DNA of 64,000 bases from Siphonodentalium dalli (taxonomy: Eukaryota > Mollusca > Scaphopoda > Gadilida > Siphonodentaliidae). Numbering within the stretch: position 1 is the stretch's first letter; each line of letters opens with the position of its first letter. A program made the position numbers and the translations under genes. Under the pieces are notes generated by a model. It saw nothing but the letters and a program-made list of their open reading frames with translations, was not told where the DNA came from and did not search any database. Shown here piece by piece: positions 5,941-55,076 of this stretch. The DNA is taken from contig CP136067.1 in NCBI GenBank assembly GCA_032622095.1, forward strand, positions 51,995,899-52,059,898. Direction: 5' to 3'.

Positions 5941-5974
5941 CATAACTAGATCCGACGAAGCACCGCGTGTGGTT

Positions 5975-9488: not shown

Positions 9489-9604
9489 AGTATATATGCA
9501 TATATATATATGCAAGGCTCTCAATGGGAGACTCACATATATAAGAGAACGAACTGGCACATGAACTTTAATGCTGTACCAGCGCAGCTCCAGTCATGAA
9601 AGGG
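9489..9604. mobile_element. CCCTTTCATGACTGG MITE, left half deleted (unit 2)
   Basis: Only the second hairpin and the right end (CTCCAGTCATGAAAGGG) remain. The intact version is at 22734-22980 in unit 3. The deletion junction carries a TATATATGCATATATATATA stretch. Confidence 0.8.
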
Positions 9605-9674
9605 ATATACAGGGTTTCCACTATGGGGTCAGGAAGTCTCATTTTGAGTAATTCACCCAAGCCATTTTTCCACC

Positions 9675-10012: not shown

Positions 10013-10034
10013 GCCTGATCATTGTTAACTAATA

Positions 10035-10115: not shown

Positions 10116-10773
10116 TACATGTATGTAAGTAGAAATTACTTCAAACTAGCCAGCGGATGAAGGTCTCATGTTAGCATGTGATGGTAAATCAAGAATATTT
10201 CATGGGATAGTATCAGGCATCAACATTAATTTAAAATTATAAAATGTTATTCCCGCTTGAAATAGTAACATTTTCAGCATGATTAGTTGGCCCACAATGT
10301 CTGTGCCATACAATTTCAACCTATTTTTCTTCAGATTCACGATGTTCAAAACACAGAATTAGGGCCGGGAATCCTTGTCTTATTATCATATATTTTGGGA
10401 TTTAAACGGATGTGACTCATTTGAACCCCAAAATTAGTATACATAATATGGTAAGAGTTATCTCAAAATATACTTACGCGGGAGATATCTGAACAATTTT
10501 TATTTATAAATTTGAGATTGTTTTGTTTGTGCCAGTCCATTTTTGTTCTATCAGTGGTCACATAAAAATTGCACCTGTAGACCATAGGAAGAAAATCTAG
10601 ACCCGTCGTCCCTCTGAAACATTTATGGTGCTACATAATTTTGGTGATAAAAACAAACAGAATGCAATTGAGTGAAATTTTAAAATAATATCCTGTTATG
10701 GTAACCCAATGAACTTTTGCCGGACAGTCAGTTTCCGAATCCAGAATTTCAATGAATACATTTAATGGCTTAA

Positions 10774-11170
10774 CCCTTTCAGTGCCAGGTCTGATTTTTG
10801 TATCAACCCATATACCCTGTGCCAATGCATTCTCTTATATATGCGAGTCGACCATAGGTCGCCTCGCATATATAAGAGAATGCATTGGCCTAACAATTTT
10901 TCATCATTTGTTATTATTTTTCACAATTTTTTACAATTTTAATAATTTTTTTCTTATATTCTTTAACAGACTTATGTTGTAGGTTTAGTGCCAGGGAATC
11001 TTACGTTTTTCATGGGCATCAAAATTATTACTATGAATACTTGGTGATAGTTTTGAGTTATAACATGCCCCTAAGGTTTTATCCAGTAAAATAATTAAAA
11101 AAAAAAAAAAAAAACGATTTTACAGATCGTAAATTAGGGCCGGTGAGATCGGCCCCTGGCACTGAAAGGG
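10774..11170. mobile_element. TTAA MITE, CCCTTTCAGTGCCAGG family
   Basis: Ends CCCTTTCAGTGCCAGG and CCTGGCACTGAAAGGG, flanked by TTAA on both sides, a piggyBac-like non-autonomous element. It holds one 69-nt hairpin (10821-10889) that is base-for-base the same as the one in a different family at 20830-20898. Copy at 24146-24542. Confidence 0.9.
10821..10889. repeat. 69-nt palindromic hairpin module
   Basis: 27-bp perfectly complementary arms starting GCCAATGCATTCTCTTATAT around a 15-nt loop that is itself partly self-complementary (CGACC/GGTCG). Each arm contains TATATAAG, a consensus TATA box, on one strand. Confidence 0.95.
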
Positions 11171-11173
11171 TTA

Positions 11174-11815
11174 ATTAAATATTTATGTTTGGCTGAAACT
11201 TGGAATATACCACTAGATGTCTAATGACAACTGGCTACATCACAACCCTTAGAGGAAACTCTGGTATATTGTAAATAACAATGGCAATTAGTTACATACT
11301 ATTAATTAAACATTCAAATCGTTTATCACATACAACAACAACATGAACATGTCATCAATCCATCAGCTTTCAAAACCTCAGTTTAACAAAGCTCTCAAAT
11401 CGCTCAAACCTTTACATGATTATCACTATTGTTAACACATTCAGACGACCATGATTCAATCATAAGTGGGGGAGACAGGCCCCTAAAAAATTGTGCATAG
11501 TTTGTTCACACGAGTATGATGTCGTCGCAGATGAAGATATTGTAGGTTCTTTGTAAGCCATGGTTAATCACGTGATTGACAACTCTAAGATCTTTCCATC
11601 TACGATTTTTACGTATACACAACTGCGATTACGTCGCAAGTGGAGGATTTCGCATCTAAAATCAAACAGTACTTGATATTATTTTTTTACTCGCGATCTT
11701 GTCGTGAGCATGCGCAGTCCAACTACCGGTTACTACATACGACAGAAATAATTCAACTTACGATTGAATCAGGGTCATCTGAACGTTCACTTACAAAGGC
11801 CGAGAAGTGAGAGAG
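11174..11815. other. AT-rich stretch, nothing recognised
   Basis: No ORF, repeat signature or RNA gene seen. Copy at 24546-25187. Confidence 0.5.
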
Positions 11816-11818
11816 TAA

Positions 11819-12061
11819 CCCTTTCATGGCGGAGCTTCGATGGTGCAGCATTAAAGATCCTGTGCCAGTGCATTCTTATATATACATAGGGAGCCTCGCA
11901 TATATAAGAGAATGCACTGGCTTAGAAGGCCAAGGTTAATATTGTTAGGCCAATGTATTCACTTATATATGCGAGGCTCCAATGGGAGACTCAAATATAT
12001 AAGAGAATGCATTGGCACAGGGTTATTCTCAAAATTTCAGGAAGCTCCAGTCATGGAATGG
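11819..12061. mobile_element. TTAA-type MITE, CCCTTTCATG family, two hairpins
   Basis: Ends CCCTTTCATGGCGGAGCT and AGCTCCAGTCATGGAATGG, with target edges decayed to GTAA and TTAC. Two hairpins of the GCATTCTCTTATATA type lie at ~11872-11924 and ~11942-12017. Copy at 25191-25433. Confidence 0.82.
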
Positions 12062-12063
12062 TT

Positions 12064-12339
12064 ACCTTTTTCTTTACTACATGGATTCTCTTGGCAATTA
12101 TCAATGTATACATTGGAATGGTCCATTATTCATTTGGAGGGATATTCAGGAAATATAAGCAGACGACAGACAGACAAAATGATAATTATAAGATTTCAGA
12201 AGTATTGCTATTCATTGGAGGGAAATTTTCAAATAAAAAACTCAACAAACGACAAATGGCCTATGGCCGTATGATGAACTTATTTTCTGAACATTTCCTG
12301 AGGGAATTTCTCATCAGTGAGTATTTAGTAGAGAAAGGG
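12064..12339. mobile_element. TTAA MITE, CCTTTACTAAATGGA family, abutting the previous element
   Basis: Right end ends in AAAGGG before TTAA (12340-12343), and the left end TTTCTTTACTACATGGATTC directly abuts the MITE at 11819-12061, so the two share one target site. The same family lies at 14463-14698, 28637-28872 and 40260-40516. Its open frame (to 12378) is accidental. Copy at 25436-25711. Confidence 0.75.
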
Positions 12340-12374
12340 TTAAATCCAGACAGTTATTTTCAACAGGTTCCAAA

Positions 12375-12733
12375 TTAAAGATATATTATGTACTTATTCA
12401 GGTGCGTGAAACTAGTAAGTTGGTATTCAGGCACTATGTCAACTGGAGGAATATAGCATTCTAGTAACATTGCCGAAAATTTCAAACAAATCGACATTAC
12501 CACTCCAAAGAAAACATCGTCTGAACTACGCGCAATTGTAAATATTTACTTCTCAATTCAGGACGCAACTATCTGCGATAAGCTAACAAAAACGATTTCG
12601 CCATCGAGAGTCACTGTATTTAATTAATATATAAGAATGGCAGTGTTTGTTTTCAATTTGGATATAATATTTGTAAAAATTACTACTTTGAGCAAGATTA
12701 TTCTCCCTACCGGAGTGTTTCACACCACTTTAA
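12375..12733. mobile_element. TTAA-bounded dispersed element, minus orientation
   Basis: Bounded by TTAAAG on the left and by the complement of TTAAAG on the right. Diverged inverse copy of 32671-33015, sharing 'GGTGCGTGAAAC' and 'CCGGAGTGTTTCACA' ends. Copy at 25747-26105. Confidence 0.7.
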
Positions 12734-12979
12734 AGATACAAGAATTTCACTTGAAATATTTTTCAAAGGACAAAGTAAACAAATCAACTAACAGTTATTT
12801 TATATGATATTCCGTTGTGGAATGGCACGCTAATTCAAACAAACTCGTAATTAAACAGGTCTGGCACATTCCAAATTCAACTATTATTGTTCAATATGGC
12901 TATTTCTATTTAACATGTTCGATAAAAGAGGCATAACCTAAAATCAGATGATACAAATATACCTGAAGAATAGTGTTAA

Positions 12980-13180
12980 CCCCTTTCATGACTGGAGCTT
13001 ACTGAAATTTTGCGAAAACCCTGTGCCAATGCATTCTCTTATATATGTGAGTCGCCCAAAAATACATTGGCCTAACAATATTTGCCACGACCTAACAAGC
13101 CAGTACATTCTCTTATATATACGAGGCTCCCTATGGGAGACTCACATATATAGGAGAATGCAATGGCGCAGGGTATTTAA
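12980..13180. mobile_element. CCCTTTCATGACTGG MITE, right end lost
   Basis: Starts after TTAA with CCCTTTCATGACTGGAGCTT and carries two hairpins (~13023-13072 and 13092-13168), but no right terminal repeat. Copy at 26352-26552. Confidence 0.8.
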
Positions 13181-13459
13181 TGTTGTGGATTGACACGCTA
13201 ATTCAAACAAACTCTTTGTTTACTTTGTCTATAATCACAGTTGCTACAGTTATGCCGACAGCTATCTCCCATTGGTGAAATACTTATAATATAATTTGAT
13301 GATACTAAATATATAAGGAAGCATAAGCTGCCAAATCAGATTTAACAACATAATCCTAGTGTTATTTCATTTGCTATGTTAAAAAATAATGAGATTCTAG
13401 AAACCCTTTCAACAATGGATATTTTCTATGTCAGCTTTTAATAAGATTGTTAGGGCATG

Positions 13460-13800
13460 GTAAAATACGCATGTGGTAATTTCAACAATGGGCCATAACT
13501 GAGGTGAAAATTGGCGAGCGGAACCAAAATTCAAACTTGACCTGTATTTTGGGCTATTAAACCCACAAATCAAATTTCAGTCCATTCAGTTAAGACTTAC
13601 TAAAGTTATCATCCGGAAAAGAAAAAAAGCGAACAGACGGATGGACGGCTATACAGACCAATAACATAATGCGTTGTTTTTTTCAACACAGGAGTATATA
13701 AATAATCCAAACTGGATTTATTGGTCAAAAGCCCAAAATATTGATGGATGGACAGATTACATAATACAATGTTTATTCCAACGGGCATATAAAGAGGGTT
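13460..13800. repeat. 'gggccataactg' dispersed repeat
   Basis: One unit of the family seen in tandem at 27726-28525 ('ggaacc.aaattc.aacttgacc', 'aaagttatcatccgg'), ending in a GGACGGA-type tract. Copy at 26832-27172. Confidence 0.7.
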
Positions 13801-14462
13801 TTAGCCATTCTCTAAGTCACTCTGAGTCTTTCGTAATCTCATCGACTTGTCATTCGCAAAAGGCATGAGATCTTATCCCAATTTACATCACACTGTCTTA
13901 AGTAAATCATTTAGATTGGACTATTTCATCTTAGTGTAAGTTCTGATTGGCAGTAGTTACATGGAATCCCAGGGGTCGTAAATAGACTCTCCAAGAGAGG
14001 TAATCAGGCCCACTACTGGAATTACCTAACCATAGATGTCAATTTTCCAGATATATAGCAAATCAGATATAATGCTAAATAAATAAATATACTGTGTTCT
14101 CTGGCACCTCTAACCACTGTAAAGAGATTACTCAAAATTGTATTTGCAGTTTTGACCCAAATTTTCAAAAAGTTCAAAACTCTTCAGATTCTATAATTTA
14201 TTCACAATTAGAAATTTAGATAGGTTTCTGACATAATGAGTAAAAGGCGTTGGAGAATAGATTTTATACATTGCTTCGAAATTTGTAGGATTTTTTACTA
14301 AAAAATTACCCATACATCCATTAATTTCTAGAATTCTTGGGGAACAACTATTAAAAATGAAAACAAATTAGCCTCCCTCCCTCATCCAGTTTCCCGTAAT
14401 ACTTGACTAAGAAAACAGGTCTAACATATATGTTTGCATTACCTGATAGTGATAAATATTAA

Positions 14463-14698
14463 TCCTTTCTTTAGTCAATAATAATTGACAAGTAATTCCC
14501 TTGTTCAGATAATAAGTTTAACAAACAGCTGAACTTATTGCAGGAACATTTCCCACCTACTAAAAGAAGTCCTTCTGTATTATCTGTTTCTCTGTCTGTT
14601 GTCTACTTATGTTTCCTGAACACACCTTCAGATGAATAACAGACCATTCCATGTACGATATTATAACTGATGGAAGAGTCCATTTAGTAAAGAAAAGG
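14463..14698. mobile_element. TTAA MITE, CCTTTACTAAATGGA family
   Basis: TTAA-flanked relative of 40260-40516 with ends TCCTTTCTTTAGT and TTTAGTAAAGAAAAGG. Copy at 28637-28872. Confidence 0.75.
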
Positions 14699-14902
14699 TT
14701 AAAGAGTATTCTAACTTAACTTTTAGGCCCAAACAAAATTATTTGAGTCTCAAAAGAAAAATAATTCTGAAGGGATGATTTTATTTTAATTTTTAATGTT
14801 TTTTTGTGCACATCGTAAGCATGGATCATGATAGCTTCCACCATGATATCTAGTAATATTTCAGAAAATGTAGAGGGAACTTTGTTTTGCATACACATTC
14901 AT

Positions 14903-15003
14903 AAGCTTTCCGATGAATGGCAAAAGCCATATTTCCGACTAAATCCTGAAAAGTTACCCATAATTCTGCTGTGTTTAAGGAGTCAATTAGTTAGGACATT
15001 ACT
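14903..15003. mobile_element. CAGTAATGCCC foldback MITE, right half only
   Basis: Right half of the foldback (CCGACTAAATCCTGAAAAGT to CATTACTGTA). Copy at 29078-29179. Confidence 0.8.
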
Positions 15004-15292
15004 GTAACAATTACATTGTGCTACCAGTATACCTGTATGACATAGGGATTACCAATAATGTTCTAACGCCCGTGACTATTCACAATTGTTATTGTTGTCA
15101 ATAAATTGACACCTCTCCATTATAACATGTGATCGTAAATTTCCTCCAGTGCCTTTCAATTGTTTTGGAGTTACAATTTATTTTCCAGACTATGATGATT
15201 GGCTAATCATTTTCTTCAATGAAGTCATCTACTTAATGTTCTATGTCACTATGCATATACATGATAGTCAATCTATCAATCAAAGGGATATG

Positions 15293-15821
15293 TTAAAGAT
15301 ACGGGCGGCGTTGGCGGTGGTTATGCTGTTAAAATATTCAGCTCTGTCAAAAACTGCCATAAACAGAAATAATAGTGAAATATAGACAGACTTTGTTCTT
15401 ATACCAATCAGAAATATGGCATAAACAGTATGTTATTGTCAAATGTTTTTCCTTTGTTATGTAAACAAAAGCAAAAAACGTTACAGAACCTGGCTTTTTT
15501 TTTTAGATCCGGATATGGTAAACATAAAGAGCATTATTTGTTACTGTTTTCCTGATATGGAAATAATAAAGAGCGTTTATATCATTTGTGTGTGATTAAC
15601 CGATAGAATTGCACAGTGTTAAGTAAACAGAAGCAAAACTTCTGTAACACGAGCAGGCTCTTGTTTACGTACACCATCGTACGTCTTGACAAAAATATAC
15701 TATTTACGCGCTGATTATGTTTGGCATAAGAACAAAACTTTATATATTTTAATATTCCTTCTGTTGATGGCGATTTGAACAAATATGAAATTTCTGCAAC
15801 GAACGCCGCCCGTGCCTTTAA
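15293..15821. mobile_element. TTAAAG-type MITE, complete (unit 2, right copy)
   Basis: 529 bp with inverted ends TTAAAGATACGGGCGGCGTT and AACGCCGCCCGTGCCTTTAA, with TTAA at each edge. No coding sequence. It is a direct repeat of the element 6.3 kb to its left, the substrate for the unit 1 deletion. Confidence 0.85.
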
Positions 15822-18800
15822 GAGTTCATGTAAGTTGCAAATAATGCTCAATACATATTATATATGGATGTTGTTTTTTCTGTCATAATATCATAAATCA
15901 AAATAAAACGTCCCATGCTGGCCTGTTATTTCAAAGCAGCGGTGTCCGAGACTCAAATAATATTTTTTATTTGGCTTTAGGCTTCTTTCCATTTTATTCC
16001 ACACCCATCGATACGAGGCACATGTATTCAACGGAATACGAGCCATTGAATACATATTAGTGTATACCTCTAGTTGAGTACATGCCGGAACTATTCTCGT
16101 TGACGTTGTCGCCAAGAAAGATGACGTACATTACGTCAACGATCCTATTCGGGTGATGCCCTGAAAATTACTGGTTATTCATCAGTTAAATCACAATAAA
16201 GGTAGTGCTAGTATCAATGAAGGTGACAGTAATGGATTTAATTTATATGACACAACGGTCTAGAAGAAATACAGAACACGACTTGCATCATAGTCTCGAA
16301 TCTTTTATCGAACTACCGTACTGACCCGCGTTTAGGCCCAGGGGGGCCTTTGTTTTATTTGAGCTCAAAAATCCAAGTGGGCTTAAACTCGAATATGACC
16401 CTTTGCAAACCAAAAATCCCAAGAAATCGGGAGAGTAAAACTGAAGAAATGGATCCAAAAAATAAAGTCGATCCAACAGAGATTCGGGGAAATATACACG
16501 GCTTATAGATTAAATAAAGTTAAGTATAAGTTACTTTGAGAAAGTATTTTTTTCATTTTGATGTGTATATTAAAATATTAGCAACCACAACGCGCAGGCG
16601 CGTTGTTGCTTTTCAAGTTTAGGCGTGAATGACGTCATTAATTTTTACAATACCATGAAACAGCATTTCGACGCGATGAAAATCCGGACAAGAAACATGG
16701 GTTAAAAATCACGTGACTTCCGCTTCGCTTTCGCACAGAATCATGGGAACAATAATATCCCAAAAAGAAACGGTGACACAGAATCGGAAGTGGACCAACG
16801 GGATTGTTATAAAATTAACAACTTTAGTTTTTCTGAACAATTCCTACGTGATTTTGGCCTATAGATTAGTTTCGTTTGACCAATTTCGTTGGTTAGCTGA
16901 ATAAAATCAGCGAAGACGTCATGACATGGTCCATGACGTCATTTGCGTCATTTGGTGTTGTGGGCTAGAATCCAGAAAAAATTGGTCTCCGCAGGAAACA
17001 CTGATTTCACATCAGTATACTAGACTTGGTTGCATTTATAACCGTTTTCGCAAAAGATATATGCGAAAATAGCACAAGCAAACGTGCCTGCTTCAGAATC
17101 AAATTACCACAGTTGATTAGCCAAGGATGTACCCTTTCCAACAATGTATAGCACGACATCGTGTGTTGCGCCGATGTTTACTTATGGTGTTTTGTAATAA
17201 CGATCCCGCCTTAGCTGCGTGTAATTTTCCTCCGTACAAATTGCTTAGCGAAAAATCCCCCTAATAGGCGGACAACATATTCAATAAGTTCCCGTCTCGC
17301 AACGATTTGGCCTCACAGACATATCAGCCGCTTATCAATTCCTTCGAGATAAATGATTGAACCAATCTACCCTAACAAGGGGGATTTTTTCACGGTTGTA
17401 TGTCGCGCGAATAGTATTGGCTGGCTGCCAGGTATTCACACTCAACATCGGAACGCGGCTTATTATTTGAAATCATTTGTGAGCAGTGGTGGCAGCGGGG
17501 AAGTCAAATTATATGTCCATCATAACATGGGTCGCCTTCGTTGGAGAAGTAGGAATTAAGCCTCAACCAAATTTGTTGTCAAGTTGACGTGGGGGGCTTA
17601 TATGACCTTGACCTTGACCATAAAACGACCTTGACCTCTGTTGAAAGACATCTCACTTAAAGGGCCATTTTGCTAGATATGTGTTGCGATGTACGCGCTC
17701 ATGTCAATATTCAGAGGCCTTTTATAGCTATCCTTTAGAAATATACCGGTATCGAGGCTCCTACATACGCGAGTCTGTATGTGACGAACAGAAACATGGG
17801 AGTACGATATCAATTTAAACTTGACCTCCATAAAGAATCTATTATATGTTTGAGGAAAGTTTTGGTCTGTGCGTGTGGGTGTGTGTGTATGTGTGTGTGT
17901 GTGTGTGTTTCCGCGATGGAATCGGAAACGGCTAACCGATTTTGACGAAACTTGCTACGGGTATGTAGTTTGACCTGTGGACTAACATGGGTATATCCGT
18001 TTGCCCGTGCGGCGTCACCTTGACCTTCAAATGACCTTGAACTCAAGTTCTCCGCTGAGCCGATTTTCACCAAATTTGGTATGTGTGGGTAGTTTCAGGC
18101 GCTGAGCAATTTCGTCACACCCGGATGCCCGTGCGGCGTGAACTTGAGATTTTAAATGACATTGAACTGTATCTGGGTATCCACTGGGCCGATTTCCACC
18201 ATTTTTTGGGGGTGTTGGTGTAGATGGGGATGCCAACAAATTTCGTCTCACCAACATGCCCGTCAGACAGGTACCCAGCTAAAACCTAATGTATAGTTTG
18301 TGACTTTTGTCTGTTAGCTATGGCCGGGAAAACTTCCGGACGGATTTCGACGAAACTTGATACCTAAGTGTACGTTTGTCCGGGAAGTGTTTTGGACGGG
18401 TCAAAGTGTGATGCTTGATCTTCAAAATGGTCGATTCAAGATCAAATCGGGTAATAGTGGCGGATTTCGACGATATTCGATAGCTAGGGATACTTTTGTC
18501 CGGGCAGTGTTTTGGACGGCTTAACTCGTAACCCCGACCTGACATTGACATTCAAAACGGTAAATTCAAGGTCAAATCTGGTCAAATTTCGCATAACTAG
18601 ATCCGACGAAGCACCGCGTGTGGTTGCCCCGTTACGTGTCTGGCGGCCATGTTTTTCAACGAATTTCAGTCAAAATAGGAGGCTCCATCTAGAGGTCATC
18701 CTGAAGATCCATATGAAGATTGGTGGTGATCAGATGAGTGACGTGTTCTGTAGGGTGCACCAAAGGATATAGTCATACCATGAGTAAATTCCAATATGAC

Positions 18801-18992
18801 CACTGGTGGCCACGTTTTTCAACAAATGGCAGTAAAAATAGGAGGCACCAATCAAGAGGTCACTCTGAAGATCCATATAATGTTTGGTGATAATCAGATG
18901 AGGGATGTGGTCTGTAGGTTGTGCCAAAGGATTTAATCATGCAAAGAGTAAAATCAAAGATGGCTGCCGGCATCCATGTTTTTCATCGATAA
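15822..18992. repeat. block B, second copy
   Basis: Copy of 3171-6341 at offset 12651 with very few changes (e.g. 'gtctagaag' at 16258 against 'gtcaagaag' at 3607). Contents are as for the first copy: no gene, a GACCTTGACC array, then ~140-bp and ~165-bp tandem repeats. Confidence 0.95.
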
Positions 18993-19162
18993 TTGTTCAA
19001 ATTTGATAGCTCCCATCTAGAGGTGATTCATGGAGACTTTTACCTTTATCTTTCATTCACTTACCAGGAATGTGGTACTGCTACACCAGCTAACCCCATT
19101 TTACAACAATCTTCACCATATCTTATTTTGGATTATGCCCCTTTCATGTATTTCAAATAGAC

Positions 19163-20538
19163 AAGCCTGCAAATAGTGTGTCTGTCATTTGCAGAATGAG
19201 GTCCCCAGATGGTGAATTCAGAGACGCTATCCTGGAAGGTGGGCTAGCATCACAAAATTCACCCTCTGAGAACTCAATCTGCAATGGGACACCTAGGATC
19301 AGATTGAATTTCCCCCAGTTGAAGTTGGTGATGTTCACCCATTAGTCAACTCGATTATGGATTTTATCTTCTGCAAATTAGAGGATACAGAAACTTCCCA
19401 GAAGGGTAAAAGTTACTAAAAAACAATCTTAATTTGAGATTATATACTTCCCAGAAGATGAGGCTAGCAGAATGAGGTACACAGAGGGTGAATTTGGTGA
19501 TGCTAGTCCACTCTGAAGGATAGCATCACTAAATTCACCCTCTGGGGACCTCATTCTGCATATGATCTCCTGTGTTATTCATCCGTTTGTACTGAAATTT
19601 TGAACAAATTGAGAACATGGTAAATGCGGAACATTGTGGAAGTTAATTACCCCCATGGTTTTCTAACCTTCTTGTGAATGTTGCTTGATTGAAAATATTA
19701 CCATTTTTAAAAACCACACATTCAACTTTGACGCTCAACAACGTCGCAGGTTGATGGGTTAACTGGGAGATCAGTGTTTGCTAAGTGCCCGATCCACTGC
19801 ATTCACTCGAAAGGATCTCTGCCCCGTAAGGTGGACCAAGAAAGAAGTACCGCCTTCAATAAATCTATGGTGGTACCTCTTTCTTGGTCCATCATATGGG
19901 GCAGGGATCCTTTCGAGTGAATGCAGTGGATCAGACATGGGAGTGGTTCAAAATCATGCCCCTTTGTTCCAAAGCAGGTGTCTTGAATGATGGATGTTTC
20001 ACCAAATGTGATAAGAAAACTCTACCATATTTCAAGAAACAGTACTGGCTATGGGAAAGATCGCTTCACATAGCCAGTTTCTTGAAAATGAGTTTTCTTA
20101 TCCCATTCGGTGAACAAAGCCATTGTATAAGACTTTCCTTACAGATGGAGGTGTTTGGCTCCAACAGATCTAAGGGTTGGTTTGCCATACAGAGCAAGAT
20201 TCCATTATCTAGAGTGAAAACAGAGGACCAGATATGGAGGTGGTTCAAAATAATGCCCCAAAATTCCCACAACGTGACAACTGGTGAATTTGAAGAAAAT
20301 CCTAAGCAGTAATGAAGCCAGTGACACTTAACCAACACTGATCAACCAGTTACAGTAATGCCCTAAATAATTGACTCCATAACCACAGAAGAATTATGGC
20401 TCATTTTTCAGGATTTAGTCGAACATATGGCTTGAGAGCTTTCCAATGAATGGCAACAAGCCATATTTCCGACTAAATCCTGAGAAATTACTTATAATTC
20501 TGCTGTGGTTAAGGAGTCGATTATTTTGGGCATTACTG
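19163..20538. repeat. hairpin cluster, unit 3 copy
   Basis: Third copy of the hairpin cluster, with several substitutions relative to units 1 and 2 (e.g. near 20145, 20176 and 20425) and one extra A near 19420. All five hairpins remain foldable. Confidence 0.9.
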
Positions 20539-20803
20539 TAACCAATCAACTCGTGATTATGTTGAGCATCAAAGTTGATTTTTGAAAATGGCAAATTTTC
20601 CAATCAAACATTCAGGATAGAAAACCCTCGGAATAATTAACATCGACAATGTGCTGCATTTATCACGCTCTTAATTCGTTCAAAATATCGATACGATCAG
20701 GTGAATAACACACACAGGGTATTACATGAGAGGTGCATAACTCCATCAGAAATGGTTGGACCAGACCCAAGTTCCATCTTCACCTGTATCTTCGTGTGAT
20801 TAA

Positions 20804-21195
20804 CCCTTTACCCAACAGAATGGCCCTGTGCCAATGCATTCTCTTATATATGCGAGTCGACCATAGGTCGCCTCGCATATATAAGAGAATGCATTGGCTT
20901 AACACATTAAAAATTATAAAATTGTTAAAGAATGTAAGAAAAAATGGTAAAAAGTGTTAATAAACGATTTTATTTAGGCCAATGCATTCTCTTATATATG
21001 CGAGGCGACCTATGGTCGACTCGCATATATAAGAGAATGCATTGGCACAGGGCATAACTGTAACTATCACAATGTGGTCAAGGAGCCGGTTCCAATGATA
21101 TCCATATTTGTATGGTTCTATTGAGACAGACCGAAGATATTTTAGGCTGTTGAATCTTTATTTGGCCGGTTTTGGCCGGTTTGTTGGGTAAAGGG
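20804..21195. mobile_element. TTAA MITE, CCCTTTACCCAACA family, present only in unit 3
   Basis: Ends CCCTTTACCCAACA and TGTTGGGTAAAGGG with TTAA on both sides. Two 69-nt hairpins (20830-20898 and 20978-21046) are exact inverses of each other. Units 1 and 2 have a plain TTAA at the same point (1810-1813 and 8151-8154), though the sequence just to the right also differs (39 bp against 7 bp). Confidence 0.92.
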
Positions 21196-22061
21196 TTAAA
21201 ATAAACATGAGCTGCCACACACATACAGCAAACCCATTCAATCGGAGTCAATCCTATTCGATGGTCCCCATATCATCAGATTCCAACAACAACATTTTTT
21301 TAATGCTGCTTCAGTTATCAGAATCGATTAATTTCCAAAAAAATAATGCTAACCAGTCAACTATAGTATAAAATTGCCCAGAACGTGTTATTTATCAACA
21401 TTTTGTTTAACGAATTTGGCTGGATTATCAAATATCTAACACCCAAATCCACTTGATTTTAGAGTTATAAATCCATCTTCATCCGCAATTTGATCCGAGT
21501 CCATCGGCTTGACAAATATTTGCCAGGCCACCAAAAATTACATATCGGAGAAATAACAAATTTCAAAAATCTATATCTGATCACTCTGAGCTTTGATGGG
21601 TGGGTTCCTTGAGTCAAATAAAATATTGTTTACCCCCGAAGTCAAAGAAATAGTAATTTGGGAGCATGAATTCGGATTATGCATATTACAAACAAAATAT
21701 GAAAGTTATTGGATAACTATAACTCAAGATATCATCCTGACAACAAAATAATCAGCAAACTCCAAGTCGAAAAGGGTAAGAACACTGTTAGAAATGGTCG
21801 GACTGGATCCAAATTTGATATTTACCAAGACTTTCTCATAGGAAGACCATAAACCAATCTTGATGAAATTTTGTCAAATAATTCTAGGTAAAAATGGTTG
21901 AACCAGATCTAAATGCGAACTTGATCAGTACTTTCTCATATGAAGACCATGTACCATATTTGATAAAATTCTGTAAAATATTACTCAAGTTATTATCCTG
22001 ACAACAATCTTTTTGGACGGATGGATGGACACGGCTTGGTGACCATTTCTATAATCTCACT

Positions 22062-22554: not shown

Positions 22555-22733
22555 AGACTGATAAATAGTTTATTAAAATAAACTTTTCACCCCCAATTTC
22601 ATTAACAGGCATATATTGATAACAATTCCTCTTGCTTTACAAAATGTTTAATATGCAGATGACATATTTCAAAATAAATATATCTAAAACAATTGGAATT
22701 CTACACAAAAAGAACATAACACTTAGTATTTAA

Positions 22734-22980
22734 CACTTTCATGACTGGAGCTTTGTGAAAACCCTGTGCCAATGCATTCTCTTATATAGGTATCCCATAG
22801 GGAGGCTCGCACATATATAAGAGAATATATTGGCCTAACAAGATTTACCTTGACCTTGCAAGCCTGTGCATTCTCTCATATATATATGCAAGGCTCTCAA
22901 TGGGAGACTCACATATATAAGAGAACGCACTGGCACATTAACTTTAATGCTGTACCAGCGCAGCTCCAGTCATGAAAGGG
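22734..22980. mobile_element. CCCTTTCATGACTGG MITE, near-complete (unit 3)
   Basis: Left end CACTTTCATGACTGGAGCTT after TTAA, right end GCAGCTCCAGTCATGAAAGGG-type, with two hairpins inside. The left half has been deleted in unit 2 (9489-9604). Confidence 0.85.
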
Positions 22981-23050
22981 ATATACAGGGTTTCCACTAT
23001 GGGGTCAGGAAGTCTCATTTTGAGTAATTCACCCAAGCCAATTTTCCACC

Positions 23051-23390: not shown

Positions 23391-24145
23391 CCTGATCATT
23401 GTTAACTAATACAGTAATGCCCTAAGTAATCAACAATGGGCCATAATTCTGCTGTGGTTAAGGAGTCGATTACTTAGGGCATTAGTGTACATGTATGTAA
23501 GTAGAAATTACTTCAAACTAGCCAGCGGATGAAGGTCTCATGTTAGCATGTGATGGTAAATCAAGAATATTTCATGGGATAGTATCAGGCATCAACATTA
23601 ATTTAAAATTATAAAATGTTATTCCCGCTTGAAATAGTAACATTTTCAGCATGATTAGTTGGCCCACAATGTCTGTGCCATACAATTTCAACCTATTTTT
23701 CTTCAGATTCACGATGTTCAAAACACAGAATTAGGGCCGGGAATCCTTGTCTTATTATCATATATTTTGGGATTTAAACGGATGTGACTCATTTGAACCC
23801 CAAAATTAGTATACATAATATGGTAAGAGTTATCTCAAAATATACTTACGCGGGAGATATCTGAACAATTTTTATTTATAAATTTGAGATTGTTTTGTTT
23901 GTGCCAGTCCATTTTTGTTCTATCAGTGGTCACATAAAAATTGCACCTGTAGACCATAGGAAGAAAATCTAGACCCGTCGTCCCTCTGAAACATTTATGG
24001 TGCTACATAATTTTGGTGATAAAAACAAACAGAATGCAATTGAGTGAAATTTTAAAATAATATCCTGTTATGGTAACCCAATGAACTTTTGCCGGACAGT
24101 CAGTTTCCGAATCCAGAATTTCAATGAATACATTTAATGGCTTAA

Positions 24146-24542
24146 CCCTTTCAGTGCCAGGTCTGATTTTTGTATCAACCCATATACCCTGTGCCAATGC
24201 ATTCTCTTATATATGCGAGTCGACCATAGGTCGCCTCGCATATATAAGAGAATGCATTGGCCTAACAATTTTTCATCATTTGTTATTATTTTTCACAATT
24301 TTTTACAATTTTAATAATTTTTTTCTTATATTCTTTAACAGACTTATGTTGTAGGTTTAGTGCCAGGGAATCTTACGTTTTTCATGGGCATCAAAATTAT
24401 TACTATGAATACTTGGTGATAGTTTTGAGTTATAACATGCCCCTAAGGTTTTATCCAGTAAAATAATTAAAAAAAAAAAAAAAAAACGATTTTACAGATC
24501 GTAAATTAGGGCCGGTGAGATCGGCCCCTGGCACTGAAAGGG
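24146..24542. mobile_element. TTAA MITE, CCCTTTCAGTGCCAGG family, unit 3 copy
   Basis: Copy of 10774-11170, including the 69-nt hairpin at ~24193-24261. Confidence 0.9.
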
Positions 24543-25190
24543 TTAATTAAATATTTATGTTTGGCTGAAACTTGGAATATACCACTAGATGTCTAATGAC
24601 AACTGGCTACATCACAACCCTTAGAGGAAACTCTGGTATATTGTAAATAACAATGGCAATTAGTTACATACTATTAATTAAACATTCAAATCGTTTATCA
24701 CATACAACAACAACATGAACATGTCATCAATCCATCAGCTTTCAAAACCTCAGTTTAACAAAGCTCTCAAATCGCTCAAACCTTTACATGATTATCACTA
24801 TTGTTAACACATTCAGACGACCATGATTCAATCATAAGTGGGGGAGACAGGCCCCTAAAAAATTGTGCATAGTTTGTTCACACGAGTATGATGTCGTCGC
24901 AGATGAAGATATTGTAGGTTCTTTGTAAGCCATGGTTAATCACGTGATTGACAACTCTAAGATCTTTCCATCTACGATTTTTACGTATACACAACTGCGA
25001 TTACGTCGCAAGTGGAGGATTTCGCATCTAAAATCAAACAGTACTTGATATTATTTTTTTACTCGCGATCTTGTCGTGAGCATGCGCAGTCCAACTACCG
25101 GTTACTACATACGACAGAAATAATTCAACTTACGATTGAATCAGGGTCATCTGAACGTTCACTTACAAAGGCCGAGAAGTGAGAGAGTAA

Positions 25191-29566: not shown

Positions 29567-29829
29567 GTTGCAGACGGCGCATAGTTACATTTCGCGAGAG
29601 CGTAATATCCTTGCGCCATCCACAACTCATTCGATAACAGATTCTTGATTAAGATGCGCGTTGTGTTCTGTCTATGTTTAAATTTTAGAGGCCTTCCTGA
29701 TTCCCATGACATCTGTCCATTATGAATAATGATGATTGAAGGTAACTTTGAGTTTTATGTTGCATGGTTAGCAGTAAATTAACTAAGGAAATGTTTTCCT
29801 TTGTGTCAAATCAGATTGGGTGTCTTTAA
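29567..29829. other. single-copy sequence between the array and the RFWD3 3' end
   Basis: No ORF or repeat recognised. Confidence 0.5.
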
Positions 29830-30191
29830 CCCTTTACCCAACAGAAGAGCCTTGTGCCAATGCATTCTCTTATATATGCGAGTCTACCATTGGCTTAACA
29901 CATTAAAAATTATAAAATTGTTAAAGAATGTAAGAAAAAATGGTAAAAAGTGTTAAAAAAAGATTTTTTTTAAGCCAATGCATTCTCTTATATATGCGAG
30001 GCGACCTATGGTCGACTCGCATATATAAGAGAATGCATTGGCACAGGGTATAACTGTAACTATCACAATGTGGTCAAGGAGCCGGTTCCAATGATATCCA
30101 TAGTTGTATGGTTCTATTGAGACAGACCGAATTTATTTTAGGCTGTTGAAGCTTTATTTGGCCGGTTTTGGCCAGTTTGTTGGGTAAAGGG
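29830..30191. mobile_element. TTAA MITE, CCCTTTACCCAACA family, first hairpin damaged
   Basis: TTAA-flanked element with ends CCCTTTACCCAACA and TGTTGGGTAAAGGG. The left hairpin has lost its 3' arm (29862-29895) and the second (~29975-30043) is intact. It lies 65 bp past the RFWD3 stop codon. Confidence 0.92.
30132..30158 (-). other. candidate RFWD3 polyadenylation signals inside a MITE
   Basis: Read on the minus strand, AATAAA occurs at 30158-30153 and at 30137-30132, about 100-125 nt past the RFWD3 stop. Both lie inside the MITE at 29830-30191. I see no AATAAA in the 65 bp between the stop and that element. Use of either signal is inferred. Confidence 0.5.
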
Positions 30192-30256
30192 TTAATAGAG
30201 TACATGTTCAATAATTATGGACAAGTTTGAGACACAGTTTCCCCGTGTTGCAAATA

Positions 30257-33282: not shown

Positions 33283-33449
33283 CTGCAATAAAACACACTT
33301 CAAATGTCAGAGTTAGGTCAATATAAACAAAATAGTTTGTTCCTACAAAAACACCTGCTGTTGACAGGTTCTTCAAGCATATTGATCTGTCATGAATAAG
33401 TAAATTTATAATACTGTCCATCTCTATTCATCCGACAGAACTCTTTTAA

Positions 33450-33842
33450 CCCTTTACCCAACAAACCGGCCAAAACCGGCCAAATAAAGCTTCAACAGCC
33501 TAAAATATCTTCGGTCTGTCTCAATAGAACCATACAAATATGGATATCATTGGAACCGGCTCCTTGACCACATTGTGATAGTTACAGTTATGCCCTGTGC
33601 CAATGCATTCTCTTATATATGCGAGTCGACCATAGGTCGCCTCGCTTATATAAGAGAATGCATTGGCCTAAAAAAAAATCTTTTTTAAACACTTTTTACC
33701 ATTTTTTCTTACATTCTTTAACAATTTTATAATTTTTAATGTGTTAAGCCAATGCATTCTCTTATATATGCGAGGCGACCTATGGTCGACTCGCATATAT
33801 AAGAGAATGCATTGGCACAGGGCCGTTCTGTTGGGTAAAGGG
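33450..33842. mobile_element. TTAA MITE, CCCTTTACCCAACA family
   Basis: 393-bp, TTAA-flanked, both terminal repeats intact, in inverse orientation to 20804-21195. Two hairpins lie at ~33600-33668 and ~33750-33818. Intronic to RFWD3. Confidence 0.93.
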
Positions 33843-33849
33843 TTAAGAC

Positions 33850-37255: not shown

Positions 37256-37365
37256 CTGAAACAAATCAACTCAGACTGAGTTCAATCAGCAGATTAACCC
37301 TATCATACCGGGAGCTGTGCTGGTGCAGCATTAAAGATCATGTGCCAGTGCATTCTCTTATAAAT

Positions 37366-38965
37366 TAGGGTTTAATCCCGGGACCGGGAATTCCCGGGTT
37401 CCCGGTAGTCGGTCCCGATTCCCGGGAAATTCAATGAGCAGAACCGGTAATCAAAGCCCCTATATAATTAGCGATATACGTTTGATATTAGATGCAATAT
37501 ATGATTTCTTTTTATAGAACAAAACTTGAATATTAATGTCTGCCCTCACGGAAGCAGGGTCAACAATTTAAAGAGTCATGATTGGCATTGACGCATGCTG
37601 CATGCACAGTCGCGTCACTCACGAGTCACTCACTCGTGATAAGTGATGTCCCAGTCGCAGACTCGTTGGTCGCGGGACTCACAGAGTCACAGGATGAACA
37701 TGGTTGTGTAATGCCATAATGTGCATACGTGACTAACGTGAGGCACATTGAGCGATTTGATTGTCTTTTAATAAGAATGACGCATTTCACGTGCCAAAGG
37801 CTGTGAAGTGCATGACGTCAGATTTCTCAGAAATTCAGAATAATTTATTCTGTGCTCACCTGCAAATCGGCTGTGATTATATAACAGACCAAGTTTACCA
37901 CCGAATTTGAATTTGACCGATTGGCGGGTAGGCAAAATCTATCGCCGGTATGGGAGTACTTTGAGAAAGTGCATCCAGACAAAGCATGGTGCAAAAAGTG
38001 CATGAAGCTCCTGAGTGTTACCGGAGGCTCACAGGGGGGCTGTCAAAGCATTTGCGATCGGTCCATGATATTTCCATAGTAAAACGGCCACTGGACCAGA
38101 AGTGAAGACTGAAACGTTGCCGCATCAGAACTGTAGACCAAAATTAGTGAAATGTGGGTTGTGAACTTGTGGGTGTAAACAATTCGGAACACAATTCTTT
38201 TGTTGTGCAGGATTTGGGTGGTGGGTCCCAGAAAATGCCGGATGAAAACAAAGGGATACCTGCTTTTGTCTCAATAAAAGGTAAACCACCACCATTATGC
38301 ATAATTCCGATAGTAATTGCCCTTATTTTGGAACACCGGCAACCGTAAGAAACACACAACTATTTTCCGATTACGACATTAATACTATAAGCTCACAGAC
38401 AAACTGTGCAATATAAGGGGTCTCATCGCTTCAAAATATCAGTGTCATATTATGAAATACTTGCTGACGTTACAAAATTATATACAGCTAACATGTACCG
38501 GTATATACGACGGTCTTAGTGATCGATCGTTGTGCGATCTCCTTTTTCTAAGGAAGTACTTCGGTCGCGAAAACAGTTAACTGACTCAATGTGATTAATA
38601 TCGCGTATTCATCAATTTAGTTATCTATTATGTAACAGCCTAACAGGAAGTCGGAGAATAAAATATTGGACCTTTGTTACAGGTTTTAGTTCGCGAAATT
38701 ACGCGGTCGGAACTTCGGAAGTTAGGAACTTTGGAAGATGGTATGCTTTTATTTGTTTATTTTGATGTATGTACCTGAAAATAAGTCTGACATAAGAATA
38801 TAAAGAATATGATATGTGCCCTACTTGTGTTTCTGTGTCTTTAAACCACGAAATATTCAGTTGTCAGTCATTCATGTTGGTCTGTAAATTACCCGGTTCC
38901 CGGTTCTGATGTCGTTTTCAGTCCCGTTCCCGGTTCCGCTAAATCCGGGAATATATTAAACCCTA
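37366..38965 (+). mobile_element. decayed hAT element, 1600 bp, perfect 8-bp TSD
   Basis: Ends TAGGGTTTAATCCCGGGA and TATTAAACCCTA, flanked by identical TTATAAAT (37358-37365 and 38966-38973). The interior keeps a BED zinc-finger fragment but no full transposase. Subterminal CCCGGGA/TTCCCGG repeats at both ends. Confidence 0.9.
37948..38069 (+). pseudogene. BED zinc-finger fragment of a hAT transposase, frameshifted
   Basis: The plus strand reads VWEYFEKVHPDKAWCKKCMK, then after a one-base frame change GLSKHLRSVHD. Together these give the C-x2-C ... H-x5-H pattern of a BED finger. No catalytic core follows, so this is a remnant. Confidence 0.8.
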
Positions 38966-39643
38966 TTATAAATGCGAGTATCCCATAGAGAATGCACTGA
39001 CGTTCAAGGTAAATATTGTTAGGCTAGTGCGTATATGTCTATGGGAGACTCGCATATATAAAGAATGCATTGGCACAGGTTTTTTGCAAAATTTCAGGAA
39101 GTTCCAGTCATGGAAGGGTTAATGTGTCAAGGTCCCTATCATGGCTTTGTTATTCCCTCCTAATTCTCTGTGCCACTCATTTGCCAAAACTAAATTTTGC
39201 AAATTTTCAATTTCAGCTCTTCTCCTTTAGAATAATAATTTGATAATTAAAAGCAAATTTAGACAATCCGAGATTTATATTTAATTCAAATTAAGTCTAG
39301 AAAGAATATTCTAAACAACATAATAGAACCCTATTTTGAAGGTGCTTCTGATGACAAAACTATTTAGCTCCATGGCCCCACAGATGGAAAAATAATGACC
39401 ATATTCAGACAAATAAAGAAGGATAACTCTAGAATATATGACATGTGAACCACACCATTTGAACCTCTGTTGAAAACTCATTAAAATCCAGTAATATATT
39501 ACTGAGAAATCTTCGCAGATGAAATGTCAGTCATATGGACGGTTGGATGGAGGACCGGATACATATAGCCCACCCAGTATATTCCCATTCTCTAAGTGAA
39601 GCCAGAATCGGTTCTAAACATTTTTCATTTCCGGGTGACTTAC

Positions 39644-40741: not shown

Positions 40742-40843
40742 CTGTAACACAAACAGGTCCATAATAAACATTTCATTATAATCTAATTCACGACAAGTTA
40801 TTTTATTCATGCCATGGTATAGCACTTTTCTTAAAACTGTTAA

Positions 40844-41294
40844 CCCTTTACCCAACAGAACGGCCCTGTGCCAATGCATTCTCTTATATATGCGAGTCGA
40901 CCATAGGTCGCCTCACATATATAAGAGAATGCATTGGCTTAACACATATTAAAAATGATAAAATTGTCAAAGAATGTAGAAAAATATTATAAAAATTTTA
41001 AAAAAATGTAAGAAAAAATTATAAAACTGTTAAAGAATAAAAGAAAAAATGGTAAAAAGTGTTGATTTTTTTTTAGGCCAATGCATTCTCTTATATATGC
41101 GAGGCGACCTATGGTCGACTCGCATATATAAGAGAATGCATTGGCACAGGGCATAACTGTAACCATCCCAATGTGGTCAATGAACCGGTTCCAATGATAT
41201 CCATATGTGTATGGTGTTATTGAGACAGACCGAAGATATTTTAGGCTGTTGAAGCTTTATTTGGGCGTTTTTGGCCATTTTGTTGGGTAAAGCG
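40844..41294. mobile_element. TTAA MITE, CCCTTTACCCAACA family, long variant
   Basis: TTAA-flanked, with two hairpins (~40870-40938 and ~41082-41150). It is longer than its relatives because the A-rich spacer is partly duplicated (40945-41055). Confidence 0.92.
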
Positions 41295-41299
41295 TTAAT

Positions 41300-42360
41300 T
41301 AATATTTAAAGATGCCTGATCTGATTTAACTCCTATAAATTACTTTTTCTATTACTATAAATATTTTATTTGAGATGAGAAACCCACTCCTCAAAGCTCA
41401 GAGTCATCAGTTTCAAATTTTGAAATCTGTTGATTTTATCCACCTCAAATATTTGTCAGTGAAAGTCCCAGAAGTCACATTTCGCCATGGCGATCGCAAA
41501 TTAGTTTTGGAATATAAGATATAAAAGAATCCCCAGCCTTGCACCAGTAATAAAAATTAAGATATCTTGTGATAGATGGCATGTCGACATACATATACTT
41601 ATTTACTAATTGGAAATAATGTTTTATTCATGCAAATAGACATAGTTATATAACTCCTTGTGTTTACACAGGTAATCTATCATCTATCATATATAATGTC
41701 AAGAAAACAGTTATGGGACTTTAAAAAAATATATAGTATTGCGCTTGGCTATGTCGTGAGTTTTTATTGGTAATATGGATAAATAAATCCACTGTTGTTG
41801 AAATTGCATTGTTGTTTTTGTAACTGAATGATACGGGGACCATCCATGCAGGGTTTACCCCCCTTGATGATTCGGTAAGACCGCTGCTACCGGTGACATT
41901 TTACCCACATTTGGTGGACTTCCGCGATATAAATATATATACTAAGCGAAAAGAGCAACATGTTGGCCTTATTAAGCACAAAAAAATATTGAACAACATT
42001 TCATGTAATTTTGAACCTTAAGTTAGGAAAGTCCCTCTAGAACCAAAGAACTATATTGCGAAATGGTGTGAATTGGTTCTCCGATTATTTTATCAACACA
42101 AAAGTCAAAATGAGCACGGACAACAACATTCATGGCAAGTCAAACACAAGAGTTCTAATCTGCTGTCATTTTGCTAAGGAGTGTGTGAAAATTGTCAACA
42201 AAACTACTGCTCTAATTCTCCATTCTGTCAATAAGCTTTTAGTGTGGGAATTGTTCTCAAAGCACATAGGGGAAATTTGACTTTGGACAATCGCGATCTC
42301 GCAATTTTGACTTGAAAAACCAGGAGTACCCAGCCGGTGACAGAGTCAGAAAGGAAGTAT
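41300..42360. other. intronic AT-rich sequence, nothing recognised
   Basis: Short ORFs only (e.g. 42056-42280, no known motif). Confidence 0.5.
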
Positions 42361-42384
42361 GACCGGTGCGCTCTGGTAGAGATT

Positions 42385-42568
42385 GGCATTCCCTTATATA
42401 TGCGAGACTCATACAAATAAGAGAATCCTTTGGTCCATGGTTTTCGTAAAATGTTAGGAAGCTCCAGTCATGGCAGGATTTTTCATGAGATATAATTAAT
42501 GTATATAAGAGAATGCACTGGCACAGAATCTTTAATGCTGCACCAGCGCAGCTCCTGTCATTAAATCG
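42385..42568. mobile_element. CCCTTTCATG-family MITE fragments, rearranged
   Basis: A broken hairpin (42387-42433) and right-end pieces (GCTCCAGTCATGG, GCACCAGCGCAGCTCC) in scrambled order. A further fragment lies at 43927-43985. Confidence 0.65.
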
Positions 42569-42569
42569 T

Positions 42570-44990
42570 TTGTAGTCCAGATCATATGAAATATAATTTG
42601 TTTGCTGTCACCCGACCCACTGGCCTCACAACACATCGACTCAAATTATGTTTAGTCGAATCAAATTCTTCATTGTAAATTTGTTCAATTGTGTGTGTTT
42701 GCAGAGATACAACCATAAAGTGACATATTAAATTCCAGAATTAATCACCATTACGGTAAATCTCAGAGATGGCCAATGTATCTAAAACAGCCTCCTAAAA
42801 AAACAGGGGTTGCACATCGATGAGGGTTTCTACCTAAAAGAGTGAATCAAATTGGTTGACATTTGTTCAAATTATTGTTCTAACATCTTAAAAGTAAAAC
42901 AATTGGATAGGTCGGTGAAAACACGTGGATAATTGACCTATAGAGTATAATGCAATAGATGCCGTTGACCTAAGAGGAACACTCTTTATTGTTCATATAT
43001 GCCCCTTTAAGTTGTCTGAGATCAACAGCATCTATATCATGACACTCTACGGTTAAATTTATCCACTTGTTTCAATTTTCACTGACCAGATTGCAACAAT
43101 TTTGTGTATATAATTAATTATTTAATTTAATTAATTATTAGTGCCCTTTTATGACATTTGATTCAACGGGACCAATCTAATAAGATACCCCCCGAGTCAA
43201 ATTACTCATATGTGCAAACTTTCAGCTCTGATGGTTCATCCATTTCTGTACAAACAATCAGTAGATAAAAGCCAATTGTGACAGCTTTTCAAGATTGACA
43301 CTTTGTGTCGCTTGTAGTCCCTCCCTTATGTTACGTCACATGAAGGAAGATGAACGATTCAGACTGCATAATCGATAATGTAATATTCAGTCGCATGAAT
43401 CAACATAACTTCAGTTACGGCGGCCTATTACAAAAAACTTTTGGCAACGTGCTCAGTGGATTAGCGGGCATCGATAATGATTGAGAAAAGTTACACTGGT
43501 GTAATCCTTTAAAAATGCTAAAAAGTTGTTAAGGGCCACAATTCAGGTAAAAAAAATGGAACAGACCTGATTTTGGAAGTCAATCGGGATATTGTTGTGA
43601 AAGATCCATATACCCAATAATAAATGGAAACGGTTGACGTTTGTTCAAGTTATTGTGCCAACAGCCATAAAATTGCTACAGATAGAAATAAGGACCATAA
43701 CTCTGATGGGATAGGTCTGATTTATCGGTGTGTATCTGTTGCACATGGTTATAAATTTACATACCAATGAGAGGCCGATCATGATCGGCAGATGTTAACC
43801 CATCCCTTGGCGATAAAAATTTACTATGATCGGAATCATAAATGAGAGTTTTGGTGTTGAATTATAGAGTATACTGTATGTACTATTATAGACAAATGTA
43901 CAAGCCACAAATTATTGGAATTTATGGGTCACTGGCATTTATATAAGAGAATGCACTGGTACAGGATCTGTAATGCTAAACCACCACAGCCTTGGGTTAA
44001 ATGTGAAAGGTGTGACCTGGACATGGAATACTTGGGTTAAGAGAGTCCAATTTAAGTTTACAATAATAATGTGTCAAATTCTACCAACAATATAGTATAC
44101 AGATAAGCCACCTCACTGCTGACCCATTAATATCAATCATACAGCAGAGCTGTGAACAAATCACAGGAATTGTTTATGTTGAACACTGACCTCTCTATTA
44201 AACCAATAACAATTATAATGACCTCAGACCATCTGAAGATATAACTCTGCAGCACAGATGTCCAAGTCTACTGCTAATATCATGTGATGTTTATTGTTGA
44301 ATCTTATTTTAAATTAGATACCATAGCCTTCTTTTTCAAATTATTTGCACATTGGCATAAGAGACATCAGAAAATAATATAGCCTTATCAATAGCTAAGT
44401 AGTCCAAAGGCATGGCATGGAATTGGTGAATTGGATTTAATGTTGCTCCAAACAGATCTACCAGTACATAACACAAGATTTTGGACCGATTTAAACAAAT
44501 TTGGTGTGGTGATTCGGGGTACCCTTGGCAGAGTTATAATGGTGTTAGTTTTTCAAATGTTTTTAACTTAAAAAAAAAATTAAAGGAACACATTGGGAAC
44601 CTTTTTATCAACTTGTATCATAATCATCAATATCTAAATGAAAACAAGTGGTCAATCCGGACATCGACAATATGTGTACCATACTATGGTATAGGTACAC
44701 ATAAAAATCAAAATAAATTAATCAATCAATAGGGGCAAAGAGTGTGTCAAAATAAACCAATATGAAATGAGACATAGTATCAGGAATGTTGAGATGTGTT
44801 AATCTTTAACTACATAAATCCATGCAAGTGAATGAGGAGAAACCTGGAGATATAACAGAAGAATGATTAATTGAAAATTAAAATGAGAACATCCCTACAA
44901 ATGAATAATAGACTATTCCAATTAAAACTTTAGAACTGAATGGGACAGTCCATAGAATCATGAAAGGGTTACAGCTTCACTGCTATGTGG
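42570..44990. other. intronic sequence with scattered 'ggccataactc' repeats
   Basis: Diverged single units near 43530-43770, a CATACTATGGTATAGGT repeat end (44645-44715) and a TTAA-MITE fragment (44890-44970). No gene seen. Confidence 0.55.
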
Positions 44991-49637: not shown

Positions 49638-49663
49638 GATTTTGCCATTTATTTATTGTAATT

Positions 49664-54356: not shown

Positions 54357-54737
54357 CTGAAAATTGAATTAATCACATAAGAAAAAAAGGTCATTGAAAA
54401 TAAAAAACAAAGAACGCATATCAAAATATTGCTTTGGCAAATATATTAATCATGCACAGATAAAATATAAACCAAATAGTAATATGCAACTATATTTTGC
54501 CACAATGCAAGAAAATTCTAAGATTTGTTGCACAAAAGTCAACATAAGAGTGTTGGCACTACTTCCATGACGTAATTATATATGTAAATTTCTGTTATCA
54601 CATTCTGAATTCAATGAAACTGAGCGCTCTCACCCAATAGATCTAGATCTGAAAAATCCCTCATGAACATGAAAATTTTAATTGACCCCTGTCTGCGCAC
54701 ACCTGTGCTTTCTTGAAGAGTGACTGACACTGATATA

Positions 54738-54995
54738 CCCTTCCATGAATGCAGCTTCCTGAAATTTTGCGAAAACCCTGTTCCAATGCATTCTCTTATA
54801 TATGTAAGTCTCCCATAGGGAGTTTCACATATATTATATGAGAATACATTGGCCTAACAATATTTACCTTGATCTTGTAAGCCAGTGCATTCTCTTATAT
54901 ATGTGAGGCGCCCTATGGGAGACTTGCATATTTAAGAGAATGCACTGGCACATGATCTTTAATGCTGCACAAGGGCAGCTCCCATCATCAAAGGG
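54738..54995. mobile_element. CCCTTTCATG-family MITE with two hairpins, complete
   Basis: Ends CCCTTCCATGAATGCAGCTT and GGCAGCTCCCATCATCAAAGGG-type, TTAA on the right (54996-54999) and TATA on the left. Hairpins at ~54780-54855 and ~54882-54952. Intronic to RFWD3. Confidence 0.85.
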
Positions 54996-55076
54996 TTAAG
55001 GTTATTGAAAAATAACCTTAAATGGCTAATTAAATGGCAACAAAAAATACTGGTATTCTATATAATTTGTACTTAC

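Follow-up and report, generated by a model that had tools for sequence, protein, structure and literature searches.

The question raised by this locus is how one 69-nt palindrome comes to be carried by MITEs whose ends differ. The window, by which we mean the whole 64-kb stretch of DNA that was analyzed (38% G+C), contains three families of TTAA-bounded, piggyBac-type MITEs, designated A (ends CCCTTTCAGTGCCAGG; one locus), B (ends CCCTTTACCCAACA; four loci), and C (ends CCCTTTCATGACTGG; five loci and three fragments). Family A has one hairpin, at distances of 47 bp (left tip) and 281 bp (right tip), family B has two, with tip distances of 26 and 149 bp in each of its four loci, and family C has two, about 37-50 bp from the tip, of types a (CCAATG) and b (CCAGTG). 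The initial annotation placed the hairpin at 10821-10889 in a TTAA element, and this is borne out by the element at 10770-11174, in which 14 of 14 TIR bases match. It is equally correct that the element at 20800-21199 contains the same 69-mer (20830-20898) along with its exact inverse (20978-21046). The features are as follows.

10770..11174, + strand: E1, family A MITE, TTAA to TTAA, single hairpin near the left end (14/14 TIR match, from sequence)
10821..10889, + strand: hairpin of E1, 69 nt (27 bp, T/C mismatch, 5 bp, 3-nt loop)
24142..24546, + strand: copy of E1 by segmental duplication, not an independent insertion (within the 99.65% block)
20800..21199, + strand: E4, family B MITE, two inverted hairpins (26 and 149 bp from the tips)
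20830..20898, + strand: left hairpin of E4, identical to the E1 hairpin
20978..21046, - strand: right hairpin of E4, exact inverse of its left hairpin
29826..30195, + strand: E6, family B, 30-nt deletion in the left hairpin, right hairpin intact
33446..33846, - strand: E7, family B, opposite orientation to E4, two hairpins, single mismatch in one
40840..41298, + strand: E8, family B, longer spacer, two hairpins, single mismatch in one
11819..12066, - strand: E2, family C, two diverged hairpins (duplicate within 22878-27728)
12976..13180, + strand: E3, family C, without right end (duplicate within 22878-27728)
22730..22981, + strand: E5, family C, two hairpins
9502..9605, + strand: E5 paralogue, right part only (left part deleted, breakpoint inside the right hairpin)
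54737..54998, + strand: E9, family C, two hairpins
37294..39122, - strand: E10, family C, one hairpin split by an insertion of ~1.6 kb
42351..42572, no strand assigned: family C fragments, rearranged, two halves adjoining
43911..44000, + strand: family C half, tip altered

The segment at 43911-44000 was considered as a fourth TIR family, which was ruled out, as its sequence aligns to that of family C, the tip being altered. The insertion of ~1.6 kb in the family C hairpin (37361-38970) has ends TAGGGTTTAAT/ATTAAACCCTA and is flanked on both sides by the 8-bp repeat TTATAAAT; hAT elements make 8-bp repeats at both sides of their insertions.

Ends of the elements

The window was scanned for TTAA pairs whose TIRs match at 12 or more of 14 bases, a search for which family C is too degenerate; it gave 12 pairs, compared with a shuffle mean of 0.05. 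C(C/G)CTTT tips are found in 6 of the 12, namely five loci and the E1 duplicate, and the hairpin is present in all 6; the remaining 6 have different tips. TTAA is present at both sides of E1, E4, E6, E7, E8, and E10, and one or both are degenerate or missing in E2, E3, E5, and E9. The TIRs match at 14 of 14 positions in E1, E4, E6, and E7 and at 13 of 14 in E8, which has a mutated tip, and this agrees with the description of piggyBac-superfamily MITEs, in the available text of a study on corals, as having a CC[C/T]T tip and TIRs about 12-19 bp long (PMC2872659). Kolobok elements are described, in the accessible part of another source, as having a TTAA target site and 5'-RR ... YY-3' tips (PMC9587614), and membership in Kolobok is ruled out by the 5'-CC ... 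GG-3' tips of the elements here. No transposase match to Pfam was found in the 18 ORFs that were scanned from the 319 window ORFs of at least 55 aa.

Families A and C have their first eight bases, CCCTTTCA, in common. Beyond the tip, similarity between the ends of A, B, and C does not rise above that of shuffled sequences (12 comparisons with 300 shuffles each, with a 12-bp left subterminal stretch of B left out). The lowest values are 17/300 (A right with C right) and 21/300 (A left with C left), and the rest are higher. Four comparisons of the B right end with two other inverted repeats of the window likewise gave no similarity above shuffles (lowest, 55/300). The suggestion that a module is shared among TTAA elements is thus supported by three families that have one core and ends that are not detectably alike.

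Copy number and segmental duplication

The 27-nt hairpin arm has 35 matches with three or fewer mismatches in the window and none in 100 dinucleotide shuffles. A profile search of the window, counted from its list, gave 28 hairpin units or fragments at E < 0.01, in which 37344 and 38963 are the halves of one split hairpin. Six of these 28 (24193, 25236, 25321, 26397, 26471, and 9505, the last counted as a paralogue of 22862) are the product of segmental duplication, which leaves 22. Identical 69-mers number 7 in the window, 6 of them independent, and two further copies differ by one base.

The block 9502-14354 is 99.65% identical to 22878-27728, and consequently E1 and its copy at 24142-24546 represent one insertion, as do E2 and E3 with their respective duplicates. 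The hairpin copy at 24193 lies inside this segmental duplication and is ruled out as an independent insertion. More generally, the first part of the window (1-29500) contains nested segmental duplications of about 96-99.7% identity (e.g., 2643-8154 with 15293-20803 and 1-3104 with 6342-9466), which are either real tandem duplications or unmerged haplotypes. A separate TTAA-bounded element, in which 12 of 14 TIR bases match and which has 5'-AG tips (Kolobok-like), is found at 2643-3170 and 15293-15821 and begins exactly at a duplicated-block boundary. E4 is present in the segment 20800-21237 and absent from two near-identical duplicates of it (8151-8160 and 1810-1819), which have a single TTAA at its left edge. 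The right flank of these duplicates also differs (35 nt vs 6 nt, with a further indel), so the E4 empty site is not clean.

Conservation of the shared core

The core unit runs from CCCTGTG through a hairpin of ~69 nt and CYTAA into an AT-rich spacer that has diverged; B and C carry a second, inverted hairpin. Families A and B have the same 69-nt hairpin, base for base, as the initial annotation had reported for elements with different ends, but the identity is not confined to the palindrome: from CCCTGTG through CYTAA, 80 to 81 of 81 positions match for intact hairpins. In E7 and in E8, one of the two hairpins has a single further mismatch. Between E1 and E8, the hairpin has 0 differences in 69 positions, whereas the spacer, an AT-rich sequence that is difficult to align, differs at 21 of 74 aligned sites and has 3 gaps; E1 is closest to the longer spacer of E8 (148 bits vs 138-143). 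Orientation is fixed as well. In all 19 hairpins that a pattern search picked up (15 without duplicates), the T/C mismatch next to the 3-nt loop has its T on the side of the nearer element end; damaged hairpins, such as the left one of E5, did not fit the pattern. The core was also considered as a nested transposon, and this was rejected, as reading of the B and C copies gave no target-site duplication around CCCTGTG...CACAGGG.

The inner flank of family A, CCTAACAATTTTT, resembles that of family C, CCTAACAATATTT, so that A, with its B-type hairpin beside a C-like inner flank, looks mosaic or intermediate. One explanation for the shared core, which we consider somewhat unlikely, is that a single old core-bearing element diverged or recombined at its ends, that the hairpin has no role, and that the A and B hairpins owe their identity to recent exchange or to conversion of a short tract. 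The mosaic character of A and the presence of a single A locus in the window are consistent with such a history. The position of a diverged spacer directly adjoining an identical hairpin speaks against it. Gene conversion limited to the hairpin, between A and B, is possible.

It had been proposed that the hairpin is better conserved than the TIRs, and that equal divergence of the two would count against this. The proposal holds between families, where the A and B hairpins match at 69 of 69 positions and the ends are unlike, and fails within B and within C. In the window, divergence of hairpin and TIR is near-equal within families, which is in part the contrary outcome. Within B, the TIRs differ at 0 to 1 of 28 positions and the hairpins at 1 to 2 per 108 to 138. 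Compared with the rest of the element without the TIRs, the hairpin has 1/108 versus 13/226 differences in E4-E6 (P = 0.03), 1/138 versus 6/226 in E4-E7 (P = 0.18), 1/138 versus 19/220 in E4-E8 (P = 0.0006), 2/108 versus 10/226 in E6-E7 (P = 0.20), 1/108 versus 24/220 in E6-E8 (P = 0.0004), and 2/138 versus 17/220 in E7-E8 (P = 0.007); these six pairs are not independent, E8 drives the effect, and three of the six give P > 0.02, two of them > 0.15. Within C, pairwise mismatches are 0.171 for the left tip, 0.086 for the left subterminal part, 0.167 and 0.202 for the hairpins, 0.175 for the spacer, and 0.178 for the right end (with E3 left out). For gap cells, the C values are 0.160 and 0.233 (left parts, partly an effect of uneven trimming), 0.226 and 0.112 (hairpins), 0.089 (spacer), and 0.042 (right end). 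That hairpin and ends decay alike within C is what would be expected if the hairpin has no role. Large deletions lie inside hairpins of E6, E2, E3, E10, and the E5 paralogue, and the A and B hairpins are otherwise intact or nearly so. That hairpins are deletion-prone and yet intact in the young families argues against a hairpin without a role.

An alignment of 10 distinct hairpins has pairing in 93.1% of its cells and a covariation score of 0.128, and neither value was reached by any of 500 shuffles or by any slide. Two-sided change is seen in 9 cells, a number that 14 of 500 shuffles equal or exceed. There is no excess over shuffles in two-sided pairs, of which there are 3, or in pair types, of which there are 13 (424 and 443 of 500 shuffles are at least as high). 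At pairs 30 and 31, both sides differ between the A/B consensus and that of C, and at pair 5 both sides of type b differ from type a and from A/B, while the consensus differences at pairs 8 and 24 are one-sided. In contrast, private changes in single copies are 27 one-sided and 1 two-sided. Fisher's test of 3:2 versus 1:27 gives 0.007 with pair 23, a tie in the a-consensus, omitted, and about 0.012 by hand with pair 23 kept. Based on the paired changes between families and the one-sided private decay, mobile lineages seem to retain palindromy and dead copies to lose it. This difference, too, argues against a purely passive origin of the shared hairpin.

Possible roles of the palindrome

The reading that we favor, tentatively and with a little less than even confidence, is that the palindrome is a subterminal transposase-recognition site, as in piggyBac, which has been joined to different TTAA ends, and that the elements are non-autonomous piggyBac-type (TTAA, 5'-CCCTTT) MITEs. 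In mobile source copies, the palindrome would serve as a subterminal recognition site for a transposase dimer, and copies that lose it would stop spreading. Template switching or unequal exchange at break-prone palindromes, for instance during repair after excision, could have joined the core to new ends. The core common to A, B, and C, the lack of likeness between their ends above shuffles, and the fixed hairpin orientation are consistent with a recognition site. Several points count against it: the length of the palindrome far exceeds 19 bp; the spacing from the tip is not constant (26, 47, and 149 bp, and about 37-50 bp in C); in family A, only one end carries a palindrome; within C, its divergence keeps pace with that of the ends; two-sided pairs and pair types are no more numerous than in shuffles; and three of the six B comparisons give P > 0.02.

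Comparisons with known systems are drawn from the available portions of the sources cited. The left and right ends (LE and RE) of piggyBac have identical 19-bp palindromes, unequally spaced from the tips and bound by two cysteine-rich domains (CRDs) (PMC11707139). As here, the subterminal palindromes of piggyBac and piggyBat lie inside TTAA-bounded ends, and those of piggyBac resemble family B in being identical at both ends at unequal tip distances, although they are 19 bp rather than 69 nt long and the end sequences are unrelated (PMC11707139). Human MER75, MER75B, MER85, and Looper are also short TTAA elements with subterminal inverted repeats, and MER75B, like family A, has them at one end only; the search for them used repeats of 5-15 nt, however, and the available text reports no palindrome common to TIR families (PMC12324416).

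In the literature searched, which lay mostly outside subscription journals, the one close precedent is the CMITE families I-VI of Acropora coral. The TIRs of these TTAA/piggyBac-type MITEs are of the CCCTTT type and differ between families (Wang et al. 2010, PMC2872659), the internal region is more conserved between families than the TIRs, and the authors propose that this region has a role in transposition and cross-mobilization (PMC2872659). The elements here are similar in that the internal core is conserved between families with different TIRs (69 of 69 positions for the A and B hairpins). They differ in that the coral core is about 75 bp and in that long palindromes are paired here, which the available CMITE description does not mention (PMC2872659). 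The 60-bp CMITE consensus has no clear match to the core here (18 and 95 of 500 shuffles are as good) or to the window (best E, 0.10). What is new relative to the coral CMITEs is the presence of paired, apparently maintained long palindromes. Scans for relatives elsewhere gave 0 matches in viral_contigs, genome_contigs, and phages (the viral_contigs and genome_contigs scans used exact patterns), and no sequence strings from the elements were found in the published text searched. This is a second case, after the coral CMITEs, of TTAA MITEs that keep an internal module while their ends differ, with cores that are apparently unrelated. The module here has a recognizable structure, the palindrome pair, which points to a role in transposase binding, and, if true, this is relevant to the survival of MITEs beyond the transposase by which they were first mobilized. 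A further reading, which we think unlikely, is that the palindrome is a portable mobilization handle, a transposase-docking module carried between different piggyBac-type ends, such that several transposases with different TIR specificities could move one core.

It is quite doubtful that the hairpin acts as RNA or as a promoter, either through a transcribed core that yields double-stranded or small RNA or through opposed TATATAAG motifs that drive transcription. TATATAAG is present on both strands of the A/B hairpin, and the predicted RNA fold is very stable (-54.3 kcal/mol; z, -14.3). E4 has 24 Rfam matches below the gathering score, including miRNA precursors (best, MIR841, with 92.6 bits vs a gathering score of 200), but no match in the window attains the gathering score of its Rfam family, the palindrome is not recognized as an Rfam miRNA family, and any long inverted repeat can be expected to give miRNA matches as weak as these. 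A loop of 3 nt would also be unusual in a miRNA precursor and counts against an RNA role. Least probable of all is upkeep by mutation, in which template switching within the hairpin copies arm onto arm so that palindromy persists without selection: two-sided changes between families are also an outcome of arm-to-arm correction, but 7 of the 9 rows with letters at positions 28/42 retain the T/C mismatch, and neither the mismatches of E7 and E8 nor the 27 private changes on one side have been corrected.

Several other features of the window were recorded. ARAGORN found no tRNA genes in it. An RFWD3 WD40-like exon is located at 32986-33306 on the - strand (E, 1.2e-10; 41.7 bits vs a Pfam cut-off of 47) and has no PDB match. 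Together with the MITEs, this weak match indicates that the DNA is probably eukaryotic. An ORF of 816 aa at 47202-49652, also on the - strand, has no Pfam match at E 0.1 and no NCBIfam match. A strong inverted repeat of a different family, with 53-nt arms at 98% identity and a 64-nt gap, is present at 31175-31344.
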